Origin: Candidatus Loosdrechtia aerotolerans
Lineage (GTDB): Bacteria > Planctomycetota > Brocadiia > Brocadiales > Brocadiaceae
NCBI GenBank assembly: GCA_021646405.1
Contig: SOER01000024.1
Coordinates: 1 to 46,700 of the forward strand
Direction of reading: 5' to 3'
Length of the DNA stretch: 46,700 bases
Shown here: in pieces, positions 4,596 through 39,301 of the stretch
How positions within the stretch are numbered: position 1 is the first letter of the stretch
How the letters are laid out: the number at the start of each line of letters is the position of its first letter
Translations under genes and position numbers: made by a program
Notes under the pieces: model-generated
The model's database searches: none
Told to the model about the DNA's origin: nothing
Seen by the model: the letters and a program-made list of their open reading frames with translations, nothing else

Positions 4596-4965
4596 CATTC
4601 AAGAGGTTTTTTATCAAGTTAAGGAAATTTCTTGTAAAAGTTGATAGAGTATAGCATCAAAGTTACCATGAGACCTGGTGAGGAACTCTATCCTTTTTCC
4701 TCCCCCTTCGATAGTGAAATCCGAAACACGAAATCCGAAACAAATTCCAAAATACAAAATTCCAATGGAAAAAAACCGTGTTTTGAACATTTGAAAATTG
4801 AAATTGAGAATTTGTTTCGTATTTCGGATTTAGCATTTCGGATTTCACTATCGAAGGGGGAGGGAACTTTTCTCTTTATCTCCTTTATCACGTATGAGAT
4901 CGTCTCAACAACTGCATTCTTTACAAGAATTCCTGCAGTATGACAAGAAACCTCTTGAATGTCAG
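4592..4965. mobile_element. 374-bp MITE-like element with inverted ends and GTTAAT target duplication (copy A)
   Basis: The element starts CTGACATTCAAGAGGTTT and ends with the exact reverse complement. Outside it, GTTAAT occurs on both sides (4586-4591 and 4966-4971), a 6-bp target-site duplication. Inside is a second inverted pair, CCCCCTTCGATAGTGAAATC at about 4701-4720 against its complement at about 4843-4862. Between these are A/T-rich runs built from CCGAAA and CAAATT words. It encodes no credible protein. Related copies in this window are at 30139-30309 (truncated), 32249-32864 (with an insert, opposite orientation) and about 39056-39301 (both ends lost). This is the most complete copy and can serve as the reference. 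Confidence 0.85.
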
Positions 4966-25904: not shown

Positions 25905-26698
25905 TACACCCCTACACTATTGTGGAGAGTCTGGATCCAAGATCCAAGATCATTTCATTCCTCTTTATTATTCTCTGTCTGATTACAACACCTGTTACCC
26001 GTCTTAAAGATTTTGGGCTGTATTTTCTCCTGATACTCGCAATAGCATCTCTCTCAAAAATTACGGTGGGACAGGTACTGAAAAAAGTGTTTGTTTTAAT
26101 CCCTTTTGTTTTTTTTATTGCGATATTTGTACCCTTTATAAAGGAAGGAAATGTGTGTTGGGCACTCAGGATAGGGTATTGGGAATTTCCGGTAACATAT
26201 GAAGGTATCTGGACATTTCTGAATATTGTCATCAAATCCAGTTTATCAATACTTCTCCTTGTAATTGCCTCGTTAACAACAGCCTTTCCGGATTTTCTAA
26301 AAGGATTGGAGATGCTCCGTGTGCCACGGCTGTTGGTAATGTTGATGTCATTTATGTACCGGTATATTTTTGTGCTTCTCGATGAGGCGAAAAGGCTGAT
26401 ACGGGCCCGGTCTCTCCGCTATTTTGGTTCCCGATACAGGGAACAGTTTCGAATAATAGGATATATGGTTGGAGTGTTATTTATCAGAACATTTGAACGG
26501 GCCGAGAGGATTTACGGAGCTATGGTAGTCAGGGGATTCAATGGTGAAATGCCAAGCATGCAGCACTTTACATTTTCCTATAGAGATTTTTTATTTATCC
26601 TGGGTATAATCATATCATTACTCTTCATTGTATCGGGTATTATTTATAACGTTGAACACTGGAGAATTGGTCACTTCCACCTATGGCAAACATTATAA
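25901..26698 (+). CDS. cbiQ: ECF transporter transmembrane (T) component CbiQ
   Basis: 265-aa membrane coupling protein of a Co/Ni ECF transporter. It has four to six TM helices and the cytoplasmic coupling-helix motifs of T components: a first ARG-like motif around LIRARSLRYFG and a second around YGAMVVRGFNG. The N-terminus (DPRSKIISFLFIILC) is family-typical. It overlaps cobD by four bases and the ATPase gene by 16, indicating coupled translation. The substrate-capture partner CbiM/PDGLE is encoded about 24 kb to the left. Confidence 0.92.
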   Translation: MIHPYTIVESLDPRSKIISFLFIILCLITTPVTRLKDFGLYFLLILAIASLSKITVGQVLKKVFVLIPFVFFIAIFVPFIKEGNVCWALRIGYWEFPVTYEGIWTFLNIVIKSSLSILLLVIASLTTAFPDFLKGLEMLRVPRLLVMLMSFMYRYIFVLLDEAKRLIRARSLRYFGSRYREQFRIIGYMVGVLFIRTFERAERIYGAMVVRGFNGEMPSMQHFTFSYRDFLFILGIIISLLFIVSGIIYNVEHWRIGHFHLWQTL

Positions 26699-27471
26699 AA
26701 GTATCAGACCTTAGATATTATTATCCTGATGGTACTGCTGGGTTAAAGGATGTCAGTTTTGAAGTGGAAGAGGGAGAAACACTGGTCATCATCGGTGCTA
26801 ACGGAACAGGTAAATCGACGCTGTTTTTGAACCTCATGGGTATTCTGGAGGGTGAAGGATGTATCAATATTATGGGTTTAACAGCAAACAAGAAGAACAT
26901 AAAGGAAATACGGAAAAGGATGGGATTATTATTTCAGGATCCCGATGACCAGTTATTCTGTCCTACCGTTCTTGATGATGTTTCATTTGGGCCTTTAAAT
27001 TTAGGGTGGGATCCCGATGAAGTAACCGCAGTATCACAAAAAGCATTAATGATGGTAGATCTGGAAGGTTATGAATCACGTACGTCCCATCATTTAAGTT
27101 ATGGCGAAAAGAAAAGGGCTGCAATTGCCACGGTATTATCTATGGATCCGCGTATTCTATTGCTTGATGAACCCACAAGCGGGTTGGATCCCAGAAGCAC
27201 ATCAAAATGCATTAATATACTGTACAACTTAAAATCTCAGGGTAAGACACTGTTAATTGTAACCCATGACATTTTTCTTGCTCAGGAGATAGCAGATCGG
27301 ATACTCGTCTTTAGTGAAGAAAAAAGGCCCGTGGCTATAGGGAATTATAGAGAAATATTAAGTAATCGCGATTTGTTACTCAAGAATAATCTTATCCATC
27401 AACATCAACACCGTCACGATAAGGAAGTACATGAACATGAGCACCGACATGATTACACCCACAAACATTGA
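26683..27471 (+). CDS. cbiO: ECF transporter ATPase CbiO with histidine-rich tail
   Basis: 262-aa ABC ATPase powering Co/Ni import. Walker A GANGTGKST lies at residues 38-46, the Q-loop at Q85 (LLFQDPDDQLF, typical of ECF ATPases), the signature LSYGEKKRA at 138-146, and Walker B LLLDEPTSGLDP just after, with the switch His in VTHD. The last 24 residues contain ten His interspersed with Asp, Glu, Arg and Lys, a likely cytoplasmic metal-binding tail not found in most CbiO proteins. The downstream gene starts inside this tail. Confidence 0.93.
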   Translation: MANIIKVSDLRYYYPDGTAGLKDVSFEVEEGETLVIIGANGTGKSTLFLNLMGILEGEGCINIMGLTANKKNIKEIRKRMGLLFQDPDDQLFCPTVLDDVSFGPLNLGWDPDEVTAVSQKALMMVDLEGYESRTSHHLSYGEKKRAAIATVLSMDPRILLLDEPTSGLDPRSTSKCINILYNLKSQGKTLLIVTHDIFLAQEIADRILVFSEEKRPVAIGNYREILSNRDLLLKNNLIHQHQHRHDKEVHEHEHRHDYTHKH

Positions 27472-28216
27472 CAATATAAGTTTTACAGAAGATGTTTGTG
27501 CCGATGGGATATGTTGTTTCATGAGTATACCACGAAATCAAAGCCACCTGGGTAAAGTGAAGTTCTTTCTGAAACGGGGAAATGCTTCGTACGGTATTAA
27601 GCTCCTCTATACAGCTCCTGAAGTAAAGGATATAGTTTATAATCCGTGCAGATGTTTAAATTTCTCTCTCCGTGAGATTCCTTCATCACACGGTACCAAA
27701 CTGCAGATGGTACTGCGATGCAGTATAATAAATAAGAGATGCAGGCCTTATACTTGTAAGGCTTTTCCCGATAAGGCGGATAGTTTTATGTATGATCTGC
27801 TTGCACCGTGTATCTATAATGAGTACAGAGCGTCCGGAAGGTATGTGAAACTGAAGCATAAGCATATTTTTCACCTGTTTTATGCCTTTAAAGATGATCG
27901 AAAATTATTAGGTAAAATTTTTCCGGGCTATACAGCAGAGGAGGTTCGGAAGAAACTGAGCCAATGCAGCGGTGTTGGAAAGGTCTGTGCTGTATGGGAC
28001 GAAAAAAAGCCGTCAGAGTATTTTCTTCTCGAGATACCCAAAGTAGACTCTATTGTCTATGTTTCTGATGTCCATCCAAGGATTGAAGGTGTAAAACAGG
28101 CATATAATTGCTGGCAGGGACATATTGAGAGCTGGCTGGAAAGGCATTATGGCAGTAAATGGCAAGATTCTTTGGATTATGCGATAGAACAGGAAGGTAG
28201 CAAACGAAAAAAGTAA
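27431..28216 (+). CDS. YkgJ-like cysteine-cluster protein
   Basis: 261-aa soluble protein that I place in the YkgJ-type Zn/Fe-chelating cysteine-cluster superfamily on motif grounds. C23, C28 and C29 (CADGICC), C73 and C75 (CRCL), C97, then C104 and C109 in NKRCRPYTCKAFP. The RPxxCKxFP segment is the best family marker. The C-terminal half has no recognised domain. The ATG at 27431 is preceded by AAGGA five bases upstream and lies 41 bases inside cbiO, so the gene is coupled to the metal transporter. A role in metal sensing or delivery is inference from the Cys set and position. Confidence 0.65.
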   Translation: MNMSTDMITPTNIDNISFTEDVCADGICCFMSIPRNQSHLGKVKFFLKRGNASYGIKLLYTAPEVKDIVYNPCRCLNFSLREIPSSHGTKLQMVLRCSIINKRCRPYTCKAFPDKADSFMYDLLAPCIYNEYRASGRYVKLKHKHIFHLFYAFKDDRKLLGKIFPGYTAEEVRKKLSQCSGVGKVCAVWDEKKPSEYFLLEIPKVDSIVYVSDVHPRIEGVKQAYNCWQGHIESWLERHYGSKWQDSLDYAIEQEGSKRKK

Positions 28217-28271: not shown

Positions 28272-29216
28272 ATGGGTACTAAGCCTTCGATTCTGCTTCG
28301 CCCGCTGAATAACAATGATATTCCGGAGTATTCAGACATGCTGTATAGCTCTTTTAATACCTGGTACCGGGGGCATGGATGGAGGAAGAATTATTTTGGG
28401 TGTAAGCCGCAGGAAACAAGAATTTTCTATGATATCTACAATGATCTTACTCCAGATTGCAGCGTTGCCGCGTTCTCAATGACAACAGGGCGAATGATGG
28501 GGGTGTGCTTTTACCATCCCCGTGAGTACCATGTTTCTCTTGGGATAATGAGTGTACATCCAGCTTATTGGAAGCAAGGGGTCGGCAGGGCTCTTGTCAA
28601 TCATATTCTTAAATTCGTTCAAGATAACGACTATAAATCGTGTCACATTGTAAGTAGTGCTTTCAATATGGATTCATTTTCCCTCTATAATCGCCCTAAA
28701 TTTGTTCCGCGGGCTATTTACCAAAGTATGGTCATTGCGGTACCGGAAGTGGGCATAAATAAAAATGTTCTCGATGATGATCGGGTTAGGGATGCAAACC
28801 CTGGTGATGTTATAAAGATGGGTGATCTGGAAATGGAAATCAGTGGGATTAAGCGGGAAATAGATTACCGGTATGCTATAGAAAATCCACGTAAGGTATT
28901 GCATGAATTGGTGTATGAGAATAGTCAGGATGGAATTGATGGGTTTATGATATCGGTAAAACATCCAGCCCTTAACATGCTTGGGCCATGCGTAGCACGT
29001 ACAGAAGATATTGCAATTACACTTATAGGAAAGGTGTTAAATAGATTTAGAGGAAATTCGGCCTTGTTCTTAGTACCTATGCAAATGCGCAGGATAGTGG
29101 AGAAGATGTATGATTGGGGTGCCATTAATGTTGAGACTTACCTTATGCAGGTATGGGGTGAGTTTCAGGATTTTAAAGGTGTTAATATGCCTTCCTTTCT
29201 TCCGGAAACCGGGTAG
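28272..29216 (+). CDS. GNAT-family N-acetyltransferase with C-terminal extension
   Basis: 314-aa protein whose N-terminal half is a GNAT domain. The acetyl-CoA motif is GIMSVHPAYWKQGVGRALVNHIL (Q/R-x-x-G-x-G/A type, around residue 105) and a following HIVSSAFNMDSFSLYNRPKF strand-helix fits motif B. Residues about 190-314 look like a second, degenerate GNAT-like domain (LGPCVARTEDIAITLIGKVL). The acceptor substrate is unknown. It follows the Cys-cluster gene by 55 bases on the same strand and may be the last gene of the cobD operon. Confidence 0.75.
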   Translation: MGTKPSILLRPLNNNDIPEYSDMLYSSFNTWYRGHGWRKNYFGCKPQETRIFYDIYNDLTPDCSVAAFSMTTGRMMGVCFYHPREYHVSLGIMSVHPAYWKQGVGRALVNHILKFVQDNDYKSCHIVSSAFNMDSFSLYNRPKFVPRAIYQSMVIAVPEVGINKNVLDDDRVRDANPGDVIKMGDLEMEISGIKREIDYRYAIENPRKVLHELVYENSQDGIDGFMISVKHPALNMLGPCVARTEDIAITLIGKVLNRFRGNSALFLVPMQMRRIVEKMYDWGAINVETYLMQVWGEFQDFKGVNMPSFLPETG

Positions 29217-29547
29217 GAAAAATATTAATGTATAACAATCTATATCCAAAGAAAACCACAGGAATTAACAGAAAACAGAGCAAGTTATAACTCTTATGTT
29301 GTAATGTCGATAATCAGCCAGGCTTTTTTGAGGAGGTTTTTCCATAGGATATGAAGGGGCAAAGTGTTCTTTATTTGTCTTGATACTTGTACTTTATGTC
29401 GTTTATAATAATAGGCAACCAGGCTGATATTAAAATATCTCCAGGAAGTTATAAGTGTTCAGGGATAGATAGTAATAAGTTTTCCTTATTTTTGCGCAAC
29501 ATATGTGGATATAGGCATATTTTATCAGGGACCTTGTTTATCCTGGT
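29217..29547. other. Intergenic region before the Cys-rich gene cluster
   Basis: 331 AT-rich bases without a credible ORF, RNA gene or copy of the dispersed repeats seen elsewhere. It probably holds the promoter of the small Cys-rich gene at 29548, but I cannot assign boxes with confidence. No ribosome site is clear before that ATG. Confidence 0.5.
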
Positions 29548-29979
29548 ATGAATAAAAAGAATACGATACTTACATACATCCAGATTTTGGTTATCCTTTG
29601 TATCGTGCTATTCGATGGAGGGATACATTTTGCTCAGGGGGCTCAGGAAACCCTTACCGCAGAACACCAGTGCGGGTGTGGATCAGGATCTGGTTGCAAG
29701 GAGTATTGCTGCTGTAGTACATCGTACGGAGACCAGAACACCTTCCGTGATAATAGCAACAGACAGAAGAGTGGCTTCCTGGTTTTTATCAGTAGTGTTA
29801 ATTGCAAATATGGAAATAATCCGCTTACCACGATAACCTTTACCACAAAGTACATAGGAGTGAATCAACTTGAATTCATAAGAGAATCCTTTCTCTGCTT
29901 CCTTTTTTTACCTGTTCAATCACATCCTTCCGAGATTATTGCATCTCCCCCAGAAAAACCACCACGATTTTTCATATAA
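29548..29979 (+). CDS. Small secreted cysteine-rich protein (paralogue 1)
   Basis: 143-aa protein of no family I can name. A signal peptide or anchor spans residues about 9-30. The mature N-terminus carries a dense Cys cluster, AEHQCGCxSxSxCKxYCCC (C42, C44, C50, C54, C55, C56). The middle holds a hydrophilic linker, and the conserved C-terminal half includes C86 in CKYGNNPLTxITFT, C117 and the tail ASPPEKPPRFFI. The Cys spacing suggests extracytoplasmic binding of a soft metal. A close paralogue starts at 31753. The two share a run of at least 20 identical bases in the C-terminal half, consistent with recent duplication. Confidence 0.7.
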   Translation: MNKKNTILTYIQILVILCIVLFDGGIHFAQGAQETLTAEHQCGCGSGSGCKEYCCCSTSYGDQNTFRDNSNRQKSGFLVFISSVNCKYGNNPLTTITFTTKYIGVNQLEFIRESFLCFLFLPVQSHPSEIIASPPEKPPRFFI

Positions 29980-30138
29980 ACACAACAATCCAATCAGTCA
30001 GGAGCTATCACTGCGGAGTCGTGAATCAGGAGACGATCCCTGATGTAGTCGCAGGTCTTTAGCCTGCGCACACCCGGGTTCAAATTTTGGGAAAAGTACA
30101 GCAGTATTCCTCGCTCTAACACGAAATGCACTCTAAAG

Positions 30139-30309
30139 CTGACATTCAGGAGGTTTCAGAAATATCCATGCGGGTGTTGAGATAATTCAGGGCGTGGGAG
30201 AGGAGAGAGAAAAGACAAAATATCCCACCCCCCTTCGATAGTGAAATCCGAAATGCTAAATCCGAAATACGAAACAAATTCTCAATTTCAATTTTCAAAT
30301 GTTCAAAAC
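30139..30309. mobile_element. Truncated MITE-like element (copy B) abutting the barrel gene
   Basis: The inverted end CTGACATTCAGGAGGTTT (one mismatch to copy A) begins at 30139. The CCCTTCGATAGTGAAATCCG core and the CAATTTTCAAATG segment follow in the orientation opposite to copy A. Homology stops at about 30309 inside the element, so the second half is missing. Eighteen bases later the gene at 30327 begins. This remnant therefore forms the immediate leader of that gene. Confidence 0.75.
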
Positions 30310-30326
30310 TACGAAAAGGGGCAATC

Positions 30327-31322
30327 ATGCAAATACTAAATCTTCGGTTTGGATATATAGTTCCATTCCTTGTGTTTTTTTTCTTATTCTCTATTCATGA
30401 TGTGAGGGCAAGTCATGGTCCCGGAACTGGTGGTGCTACCACCGTACCGGCTATTACTTTGAAGAAAGAGGCATTTTCACTTGGTTTAAGAACAGAATGG
30501 ACGGAATTCGAATCTATCTCCCGTTCAAGGATTCTTGAAAAAGCGGAGCAGTCAGGTTCTCATTTTGATGCCGTTGACAGGACATTTCTGCACACGGCGG
30601 AACTTGGATATGGAGTAACTGATGACCTGACCCTCGGGCTTATTATCGGGTGGTTTGAGTCGATTAACTTCCGTGAAGCAGAATCTGATCACGATCATGC
30701 TCATGATCATGGCCATGATGAGGCAGGGATACTTCGGGGAGATCCGGATGGTATTACCGACCTCTGGCTTTTTGGCAAGTATCGTTTTTATCGTGGACCT
30801 CAGGGGCACTGGGCTGTTCTGGCGGGTATTAAATTCCCGACAGGGGAGGAGGATAAAGAGAACAGTGCGGGTGAAAAGATAGAACCCGGAGACCAGCCCG
30901 GAAGTGGTTCATATGATTTTTTAGCCGGTCTGGCATACTCACGATGGCTTACAAAAGAATGGACCCTGGATACGAACATCCAGTATATCTTTCGAACAGA
31001 GGGTTCGAGGGATTTTAAGGTAGGTGACCGTATGGACTGGAACCTTGCAATGGCGTATCAGATAATTCCCAGAAATACCTATCCAAATATTGCACCTGTT
31101 GGAGAAATTAACGTAAGATATCTTTTCCGGGATGAGGAGAACGGAAGGGATGAACCCAATAGTGGCGGTACTACGGTCTTTCTTTCACCGGGAATACGTT
31201 TAGGGATTACCCCTCATTTGAACGCAGGGGCCCTGGTTTCATTTCCTGTATTCCAAAATCTGCTTGGAGAACAATTGGAAACAGATTTTAAAGTAACAGT
31301 TACTGTTGGTTATAATTTTTAA
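30327..31322 (+). CDS. Outer-membrane beta-barrel protein with a His-rich loop
   Basis: 331-aa exported protein with a signal peptide (hydrophobic residues about 10-23, ending near VRASHG). The mature chain alternates polar and aromatic/hydrophobic residues in many short strands, such as LTLGLIIGWFESINF and WTLDTNIQYIFRT. It ends with the terminal strand VTVTVGYNF, whose last residue is Phe, as usual for barrels inserted by BamA. It resembles the 'transporter' proteins related to MetA-pathway barrels. A loop at 121-131 (DHDHAHDHGHD) has five His and is a probable metal-binding site. AAGGGG lies six bases before the ATG. It is followed after 15 bases by the YHS lipoprotein gene. Confidence 0.75.
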   Translation: MQILNLRFGYIVPFLVFFFLFSIHDVRASHGPGTGGATTVPAITLKKEAFSLGLRTEWTEFESISRSRILEKAEQSGSHFDAVDRTFLHTAELGYGVTDDLTLGLIIGWFESINFREAESDHDHAHDHGHDEAGILRGDPDGITDLWLFGKYRFYRGPQGHWAVLAGIKFPTGEEDKENSAGEKIEPGDQPGSGSYDFLAGLAYSRWLTKEWTLDTNIQYIFRTEGSRDFKVGDRMDWNLAMAYQIIPRNTYPNIAPVGEINVRYLFRDEENGRDEPNSGGTTVFLSPGIRLGITPHLNAGALVSFPVFQNLLGEQLETDFKVTVTVGYNF

Positions 31323-31337
31323 TGATAGGAGTTATGT

Positions 31338-31760
31338 ATGTTGAATAAAAACATTCTCTTCACAGGTATCTTTTTTCTCACCATTATTGGGTGTGCAAGT
31401 ACGAATAGTACGGTGAAAAAAGAAGAACCGAATGTTGTCGATCCCGTTTGTGCATACTTCGCTGATATGGGATGTATAAATATTACCGTAGATGAGAATA
31501 CCCCACGGTCAACATATGGGGGTATGACATATTATTTTTGCAGCAGGGATTGTAAGGTTGATTTTGACAAGAACCCATCAAAATACCTTAAAACTGCTGT
31601 AGTTCCGGAAGATGTTATAGATTATGTATGCCGCGCAAAGATTGAAGAACAGGGGGGATTTGTTACTTGTGTGTGTCAGGATAATACCTACTACTTCTGT
31701 TCCGATCGTTGCAGGGCAAAGTTTATGGCGGATCCTGATCGTTATGGTATGCATGAATAA
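31338..31760 (+). CDS. Lipoprotein with two YHS/TRASH-like cysteine modules
   Basis: 140-aa protein. The N-terminus is a lipoprotein signal with the lipobox I-I-G-C19, predicting an envelope-anchored protein. Two similar modules follow. Module 1 has DPVCAY (residues 35-40) and then GMTYYFCSRDCKVDFDKNPSKYL (C68, C72). Module 2 has DYVCRAK (96-102) and then TYYFCSDRCRAKFMADPDRYG (C121, C125). Both match the YHS/TRASH layout (C, then YYFCS..C...F...P..Y), a domain linked to copper and other heavy-metal proteins. Its stop overlaps the start of the second Cys-rich gene, so the pair is translationally coupled. Confidence 0.8.
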   Translation: MLNKNILFTGIFFLTIIGCASTNSTVKKEEPNVVDPVCAYFADMGCINITVDENTPRSTYGGMTYYFCSRDCKVDFDKNPSKYLKTAVVPEDVIDYVCRAKIEEQGGFVTCVCQDNTYYFCSDRCRAKFMADPDRYGMHE

Positions 31761-32166
31761 GACACTTTCATATATCCAGATTTTGATTCTTATATGTTCG
31801 ATGTTGTGTGGCGGGGGGTTCACAGGAAACCTCCCGCAGAAATCTCAAGCATCCCTGTGTGCAGAGCATCAGTGTGGGTGTGAATCAGAATCTGACTGCA
31901 GGAAACATTGTTGCTGTAATTCTTATGAAAGGCAGGATATCGGTAGTAAACAGAAAAACGGTTTTCATGTTTTTATCAGTAGCATCAAATGTAAATATGG
32001 AAATAATCCGCTTACCGCAATAACCTTTACCGCAAAGTATATAGGAGAGGATCAAATTGAATTCATAAAAGCATCCTTCCTCTGCTTTCTTCTTTCATAC
32101 GCTGCGCCATACCCTTCTGAAACCATTGCATCCCCCCCGGAAAAACCACCCCGGTATTTCATCTGA
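31753..32166 (+). CDS. Small secreted cysteine-rich protein (paralogue 2)
   Basis: 137-aa paralogue of the protein at 29548. Shared are the N-terminus (NKxxSYIQILxILC), the cluster AEHQCGCxSxSxCRxHCCC (C41, C43, C49, C53, C54, C55), FISSIKCKYGNNPLTAITFT, KYIGxxQxEFI and the tail ASPPEKPPRYFI. The frame is open further upstream to 31624, but that part lies antisense in phase over the YHS gene. The ATG at 31753 both overlaps the YHS stop by eight bases and gives the same N-terminus as the paralogue, so I take it as the start. Function unknown; extracytoplasmic metal binding is inferred from Cys content and neighbours. Confidence 0.7.
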   Translation: MNKTLSYIQILILICSMLCGGGFTGNLPQKSQASLCAEHQCGCESESDCRKHCCCNSYERQDIGSKQKNGFHVFISSIKCKYGNNPLTAITFTAKYIGEDQIEFIKASFLCFLLSYAAPYPSETIASPPEKPPRYFI

Positions 32167-32248: not shown

Positions 32249-32864
32249 CTGACATTCAAGAGGTTTCCGCCAGGTTGTGGAATTTCTTGTAAAGAATGCA
32301 GTTGTTGAGACAATCTCATACGTGGTAGAGGAGATAAAGAGAAAAGATCCCTCCCCCTTCGATAGTGAAATCCGAAATGCTAAACACGAAATACGAAACA
32401 AATTTTCAATTTCAATTTTCAAATGTTCAAAACACGGTTTTTTCCATTGGAATTTTGTATTTTGGAATTTGTTTCGGATTTCGTGCTTCATGTCCAGTTA
32501 TCGGGTTGAAAATATGTGGGCAAGGATGAGCCGGAGGGGGATGAAGGGCATATGGATCAAGCTAAGCCAGTAGAGACGCAAAATCTTGCGTCTCTACTTG
32601 GCCTGCCACTGGCTTGTTGGGCTACTACCGGCTTGTTCCCAAACTCTGTTTGGGAACAAGATGAAGGGGCAGGCTCAGCGCATGGTTTGGGAACAGGCCA
32701 GCAACAAGCGAGCAAGTTACTGAAGCTTAGCTTGATGCATATGGGATGAAGGGGGAGGGAAAAGGAGATCTTTCCTTACCAGGTCTCGTGGTAACTTTGA
32801 TGCTATACTCTATCAACTTTTACAAGAAATTTCCTTAACTTGATAAAAACCTCTTGAATGTCAG
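32249..32864. mobile_element. MITE-like element (copy C), full ends, carrying a palindromic insert
   Basis: Both inverted ends are present: CTGACATTCAAGAGGTTT at 32249-32266 and its complement ending at 32864. The flanks are TTATAT on the left and ATATAT on the right, a target duplication with one mismatch. Orientation is opposite to copy A. Homology to copy A runs from the left end to about 32486 and resumes at about 32748 (GAAGGGGGAGG then ACCAGGTCTC). The intervening 260 bases are foreign and replace about 15 bases of the core. Confidence 0.85.
32549..32743. repeat. Palindromic unit inserted in copy C
   Basis: Outer arms CATATGGATCAAGCTAAGC (32549-32567) and GCTTAGCTTGATGCATATG (32725-32743) are inverted repeats with one mismatch. 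Inside are two perfect hairpins. GTAGAGACGCAA (32570-32581) pairs with TTGCGTCTCTAC (32586-32597). CTTGTTCCCAAAC (32632-32644) pairs with GTTTGGGAACAAG (32648-32660). An outer arm recurs alone at 21018-21035. The reading frame that crosses this unit is an artefact of the repeats. Confidence 0.8.
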
Positions 32865-39055: not shown

Positions 39056-39301
39056 TGTCCCCCTCTGATGCTGAAATCCGAAATACGAAACTTGTCCTGA
39101 GCGGAGCGAACGGATCCGAAACAAATTCCAAAATACAAAATTCCAATGGAAAAAATCGTGTTTTGAACATTTGAAAATTGAAATTGAGAATTTGTTTCGT
39201 ATTTCGGATTTCGCATTTCACTATCGAAGGGGAGGGATCTTTTCTCTTTATCTCCTCTACCACGTATAAGACTGTCTCAACAACTGCATTCTTTACAAGA
39301 A
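39056..39301. mobile_element. MITE-like fragment (copy D) between xseA and xseB
   Basis: The segment matches the middle and right part of copy A in the same orientation: GAAATCCGAAATACG, AATTCCAATGG, TTCACTATCGAAGGGG and CAACTGCATTCTTTACAAGA. Both outer inverted ends are missing. A block of about 30 bases containing CTTGTCCTGAGCGGAGCG has been added near 39090, and the left side is replaced by a GGTTCAGG run. A frame that runs through this element on the minus strand is a by-product of the repeat. Confidence 0.75.

Follow-up and report, generated by a model that had tools for sequence, protein, structure and literature searches.

A family of candidate metal-sensing leader ORFs upstream of outer-membrane protein genes in anammox bacteria and other planctomycetes

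Two small Cys-rich ORFs, CysA and CysB, were found in a 46,700-nucleotide stretch of a Candidatus Loosdrechtia aerotolerans contig (hereafter, the window). They are probably cis-acting metal-sensing leader ORFs that act like CruR and CutF. They belong to a previously unnamed family, here called CysX, whose members are annotated as hypothetical proteins. CysX is best read as a new family, spread across Planctomycetota, whose members are candidate leader ORFs that respond to metal. The gene order, the motif conservation, the fixed spacing, the selection at the protein level, and the exchange of target genes were directly observed. A cis-acting leader is suggested by the strictly upstream position of CysX, the invariant Pro/Arg tail at the stop codon, the fixed spacing, and the non-homologous partners.

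The initial annotation of this locus had described four adjacent genes on the same strand, and all four ORFs were recovered on the + strand at the coordinates given there. CysA (29548-29979, 143 aa), the candidate leader ORF for the barrel gene, has a strongly hydrophobic N-terminus as judged from hydropathy. The candidate metal site, H-x-C-G-C-x5-C-x3-CCC, spans residues 40-56 (codons 29665..29715), with the Cys residues arranged as C42-G-C44-x5-C50-x3-C54-C55-C56. The candidate ribosome-stalling motif, SPPEKPPR, occupies residues 133-140 (codons 29944..29967), three residues before the stop codon. This C-terminal motif is the most telling feature of the protein and was missing from the initial annotation. 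An intergenic region of 347 nucleotides (29980..30326), where regulation would be expected, separates CysA from the gene of a barrel-type outer-membrane protein (30327-31322, 331 aa), the presumed regulated target. Next come the gene of a lipoprotein with two YHS modules (31338-31760, 140 aa) and CysB (31753-32166, 137 aa), a second candidate leader ORF. The start of CysB was set at the ATG at 31753 by homology and by the overlap; the mechanical ORF begins at 31624. Since the CysB start and the lipoprotein stop share eight nucleotides (ATGAATAA), translational coupling from the lipoprotein to CysB is plausible. Upstream of CysA, a consensus scan gave TTGATA-18-TATAAT (29380..29409, + strand) as the best promoter-like match of the region (11/12 positions), the frequency of such matches being no higher than in shuffled sequences.

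CysA and CysB share 58% identity, are each other's nearest relatives on the CysX tree (support 99/95), and are the only two CysX copies in the genome. The genome encodes hydrazine synthase alpha (PF18582) and thus belongs to an anammox bacterium. It also encodes Rho. The cluster had been said to follow the cobD-cbiQ-cbiO genes, which is true of the order, but two other genes lie between cobD/cbiB-cbiQ-cbiO and CysA (27431-28216 and a GNAT acetyltransferase gene, 28272-29216). The former encodes a Cys-containing protein of 261 aa with no Pfam match (family F5); about 20 genomes keep it in this place, after cbiO and before CysX. CbiO (26683-27471) has a His-rich C-terminal tail (HQHQHRHDKEVHEHEHRHDYTHKH), which was found in relatives too. 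A CbiM gene lies apart from cbiQO at 1136-1747. It is one of three in the genome, where one CbiM gene belongs to a cbiMNQO-cobD-cobQ-like cluster and another to a nikMLQO-like cluster, after which comes a PF13557 barrel gene that has no CysX.

The initial annotation could not name the Cys-rich family, and it is indeed uncharacterised; no CysX match was found in Pfam or NCBIfam, and a defensin-like match in one member was taken as chance. By direct search, relatives turned up in 41 of the 62 genomes of the order, and a profile search extended the family to further planctomycetes. Plasmid searches gave no match, and two scans of genome contigs gave no relatives. For the family analysis, 54 members were collected with their flanking DNA, in which ORFs were called. 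A hydrophobic N-terminus is present in all 54. In the HxCxC...CCC cluster, Cys42, 44, 54, 55, and 56 are invariant (54/54), and His40 is found in 52 members. Beyond the cluster, another Cys (Cys86 in CysA) and two Pro residues are likewise invariant.

The tail, with the consensus SPPEKPPR, lies two to nine residues before the stop codon, usually three. All 54 members have PP within the last 15 residues, compared with 10 of 588 non-CysX ORFs from these loci, and P.KPP[RKQ] is found in 51 members and in none of the 588 ORFs. The distance from CCC to PPR is 79-80 residues in 46/54 members, and that from Cys86 to PPR is 51-52 residues in 52/54. Despite this fixed spacing, much of the sequence between the cluster and the tail is poorly conserved. 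The dN/dS values of close CysX pairs are mostly 0.14-0.55 (0.76 in one pair). Thus, the CysX proteins are under purifying selection.

Does the gene set recur in other genomes? It does, with a different logic from that first proposed. For 51 of the 53 CysX genes having downstream sequence, the next same-strand gene encodes an envelope protein; the exceptions are the window's CysB and a degenerate copy at locus L045. The downstream genes encode PF13557-like barrels (32), exported proteins (14), and TonB-dependent receptors (5), and the gap before them is 78-656 nucleotides (median, 278). The 14 exported proteins are uncharacterised and are usually followed by a barrel. Eleven loci (e.g., L064:7993-8841) regularly have between CysX and the barrel an exported protein of 280-330 aa (family F11) with an HGCGSSHAHG motif and a His-rich end; one tested member had no Pfam match. 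One receptor downstream of CysX matches TIGR01778, the TonB-dependent copper receptor, with 695 bits (cut-off, 472), and that at L127 does so with 678 bits. A third, at L067, resembles siderophore and other receptors. On the tree, receptor-linked CysX sequences are nested among barrel-linked ones, with a second receptor-linked case in another part of the tree. Thus, at least two swaps to a non-homologous downstream gene have taken place.

Genomes with two CysX copies usually have one separate target for each. In relatives of the window genome, the second CysX, after the lipoprotein gene, precedes a second barrel gene. This barrel gene is missing from the window, where a tblastn search for a remnant gave very short, weak matches only. 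The absence of a recognisable target downstream of CysB in this genome counts against the leader reading. So does the overlap of CysX with the gene before it in some genomes, as a result of which CysX is not always the first in its transcript. The block dnaK, cbiB, cbiQ, cbiO, 261-aa protein, CysX, and barrel, often with cbiA, recurs in about 20 genomes.

The barrel protein matches PF13557 (Phenol_MetA_deg; E = 6.6e-13, 49.7 bits, cut-off 22) and has a hydrophobic N-terminus. Its proposed nature as an outer-membrane barrel rests on this match, while a single-sequence AlphaFold2 prediction (mean pLDDT, 33) did not confirm the topology. The five-His loop pointed out earlier, DHDHAHDHGHD, is present in the window, but it is absent from most orthologous barrels, so it was rejected as a conserved metal site. 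The lipoprotein has a lipobox-like IIGC and matches PF04945 in two stretches (E = 5.8e-17, 61.9 bits, cut-off 30.3). The association of barrel, double-YHS, and Cys-rich proteins held in part: the CysX-barrel pair recurs, but the YHS lipoprotein is found at only 9 of about 50 loci, each time after one barrel type. It is an accessory of the barrel, and both the lipoprotein and the His loop are best read as local additions.

CruR- and CutF-type genes precede metal-homeostasis genes (PMC9426467, PMC9973294). In Bordetella pertussis, the gene of a copper TonB receptor is preceded by that of CruR, a DUF2946 protein of the exported type. When the nascent CruR chain binds Cu at its CXXC motif, stalling at the C-terminal RAPP is relieved, and Rho then ends transcription in the gap (PMC9426467). 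OprC-type TIGR01778 receptors are among the neighbours of such genes, long gaps are typical, and a few DUF2946 members occur in Planctomycetes (PMC9426467). CysX is likewise a small exported-type protein, encoded directly upstream of an envelope gene, including TonB receptor genes. It shares with CruR an invariant Cys site, a C-terminal Pro motif three residues from the end, a near-constant Cys-to-tail spacing, and a long intergenic region (162 nucleotides for CruR). In contrast, CysX has a CCC cluster, PPEKPPR, and a spacing of 80 residues (52 from the last Cys), where CruR has CXXC, RAPP, and 45 residues. That the tail is not RAPP is a point against the leader reading, and so is the lack of detectable homology to DUF2946. 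Membership of CysX in DUF2946 was rejected because no profile match and no CXXC and RAPP about 45 residues apart were found: hmmscan at E<=1 gave no PF11162 match for CysX, none was found in the window genome, and hhalign with one DUF2946 protein gave a probability of 0.1%.

CutF of Rhodobacter capsulatus is exported co-synthetically, and Cu on its CxxxC motif, together with a Pro-rich tail, enables the following gene to be expressed more strongly; the tail alone caused no stalling in a LepB fusion (PMC9973294), which speaks against the leader reading. CysX resembles CutF in its signal-like N-terminus of the Sec type (by hydropathy), Cys site, Pro-rich C-terminal tail, and position upstream of a metal-homeostasis gene. 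CutF differs in its CxxxC motif and in a short stem-loop in the intergenic region that covers the ribosome site of the next gene, while the CysX gaps are mostly 160-420 nucleotides long with no conserved structure. The layout of CysX was compared with the published screening definition of CutF-like proteins (PMC9973294), and CysA agrees with its length, tail, and gene-order parts. The length limit is 150 aa; CysA (143), CysB (137), and 45/54 members are shorter when the start is placed near the signal segment. A same-strand downstream gene lies within 1,000 nucleotides in 52/54 cases, including CysA and excluding CysB. As for the signal peptide, the N-terminal segment of CysX is strongly hydrophobic, by hydropathy only. 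The main text of the CutF paper (PMC9973294) does not mention Planctomycetota, and some planctomycete members may already be in its supplementary lists; a literature search found no paper with both anammox and CutF. The arrest peptides of the SecM/ApdA type with RAPP-like motifs also have a C-terminal Pro/Arg motif near the stop codon upstream of a regulated gene, but they are tied to protein localisation (Sec/YidC) genes and have no metal site (PMC10987492, PMC12992588).

How might CysX work? From the hydrophobic N-terminus, the chain would be exported during synthesis, and the ribosome may pause at the Pro-rich PPEKPPR tail. At this pause, the CCC cluster about 80 residues upstream of the tail would be out of the ribosome and could be at or across the membrane; the further invariant Cys lies about 52 residues upstream of the tail. 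A length of 80 residues suffices to span the ribosome tunnel and the translocon, and sensing outside the cytoplasm would fit this distance. Metal on the Cys cluster may then alter the pause, which would decide whether transcription or translation proceeds through the gap into the outer-membrane protein gene.

The intergenic regions were analysed for signals of this regulation. RNAalifold found no conserved structure in the CysX intergenic regions, and terminator-like sites are present in just 4 of 52. The 347-nucleotide gap has no terminator-like site on the + strand. The regions are only slightly richer in C than other gaps, a point against the leader reading. The long structure-free gaps, the few terminator-like sites, and the presence of Rho weakly favour the CruR type, with an outcome linked to Rho, rather than a stem-loop as in CutF. 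Riboswitch control was rejected, since an Rfam scan matched tRNAs only, with no cobalamin or NiCo riboswitch. A duplicated intergenic region after CysA and CysB was also rejected, since the shared sequence is a dispersed repeat of about 80 bp. This repeat occurs in the window at 30229-30309, inside the CysA-barrel gap, and at 32353-32433, 4780-4860, and 39160-39232. It has 44 matches in the genome, eight of them at >=96% identity over nearly the full length, and one copy directly precedes the barrel start.

Which metal is sensed? Copper is the most likely ligand of CysX, considering the all-Cys site and the TIGR01778 match of a receptor target tested by profile. Nickel or cobalt is possible for the window barrel beside cbiQO, given the cbiQO/cbiA and nikMLQO-like neighbourhoods and DUF4198. 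It is rather doubtful that the ligand of the candidate leader CysX is Ni or Co, with a role in uptake for B12 or nickel enzymes. This alternative departs from the leader reading preferred here in the metal alone, and the two overlap. The window block cbiB-cbiQ-cbiO-...-CysX-barrel, which ends in cbiA in many relatives, and the nikMLQO-like genes or DUF4198 at some loci are in its favour. An all-Cys CCC site, on the other hand, is a soft-metal design. The TonB receptors preceded by CysX, one of them matching the copper receptor model, and the lack of cobalamin and NiCo riboswitches in Rfam also count against it, although His-only CutF-like proteins are known to stand before HupE (PMC9973294).

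The initial annotation was right in assigning the locus to envelope metal handling, but the capture machine that it proposed, with four parts and a small secreted carrier among them, was not supported. CysX is a separable module placed directly before different envelope proteins. This layout, with a conserved Pro-rich tail before the stop codon, fits nascent-chain regulatory leaders and is unexpected in a carrier. CysA and CysB are thus unlikely to be secreted periplasmic or extracellular metal chaperones feeding the barrel and the YHS lipoprotein, even though they have a signal-like N-terminus, are Cys-rich, and always adjoin an envelope protein, and even though CutF itself was once conjectured to be a chaperone (PMC9426467). 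Chaperones would leave unexplained the invariant Pro/Arg tail with its fixed spacing, as well as the strictly upstream position and the swapping of non-homologous targets; barrels also occur without CysX. The detoxification likewise proposed is less likely than regulated uptake, considering the downstream TIGR01778 copper receptor and the Co/Ni ECF importer neighbours. Genes for copper resistance often have YHS and Cys-rich proteins encoded nearby, which speaks for detoxification. So does the position of most Cys-type CutF-like genes before copper homeostasis genes, RND efflux parts foremost (PMC9973294). Nevertheless, a cluster devoted to efflux or sequestration is very unlikely, because the neighbours are importers (CbiQO and TonB receptors) and neither an RND pump nor a P-type ATPase was identified in the annotated part of the recurrent neighbours.

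The leader reading may extend beyond the anammox branch. The HxCGC...C...CCC module was found in ORFs of other Planctomycetota (profile-profile probability, 98%; E = 4e-14), which also have a later Cys and a C-terminal PP tail, such as PPVPPPR and PDPPPPRA. These ORFs lie upstream of barrels, TonB receptors, DUF4198, or DUF1559 pilin-like proteins. Their Cys-to-tail spacing is often longer and variable, which speaks against the leader reading; thus, it is in the anammox branch that the spacing is fixed. It may tentatively be speculated that CysX represents a previously unrecognised, Planctomycetota-wide class of leaders whose nascent chains sense extracytoplasmic metal. This class would have been joined successively to barrels, TonB receptors, and, in other planctomycetes, DUF4198 and pilin-like DUF1559 genes, possibly for different metals. 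In anammox bacteria, the spacing of about 80 residues would then put the Cys cluster across the membrane when PPEKPPR stalls the ribosome.

If the leader reading is true, anammox outer-membrane metal proteins are regulated via the translation of sensing leaders and not by DNA-binding regulators alone. The principle of CruR (2022) and CutF (2023) would reach another phylum, where both the metal site and the motif of the tail are different. Candidate stalling sequences would become available in a large natural collection, and a family without a Pfam or NCBIfam entry would gain a function.

Two further observations were made in other planctomycetes. At L116, L118-L120, and L122-L126, CGC...CCC leader-like ORFs immediately precede prepilin-like genes, of which one was confirmed as DUF1559 and the rest were judged by their N-terminal sequences. 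Such genes would not be expected as targets of a metal-sensing leader. At L140 (5769-6203), a DUF2946 protein ending in RAPPFFLFS adjoins znuABC-like genes and is possibly a zinc-linked relative of CruR.
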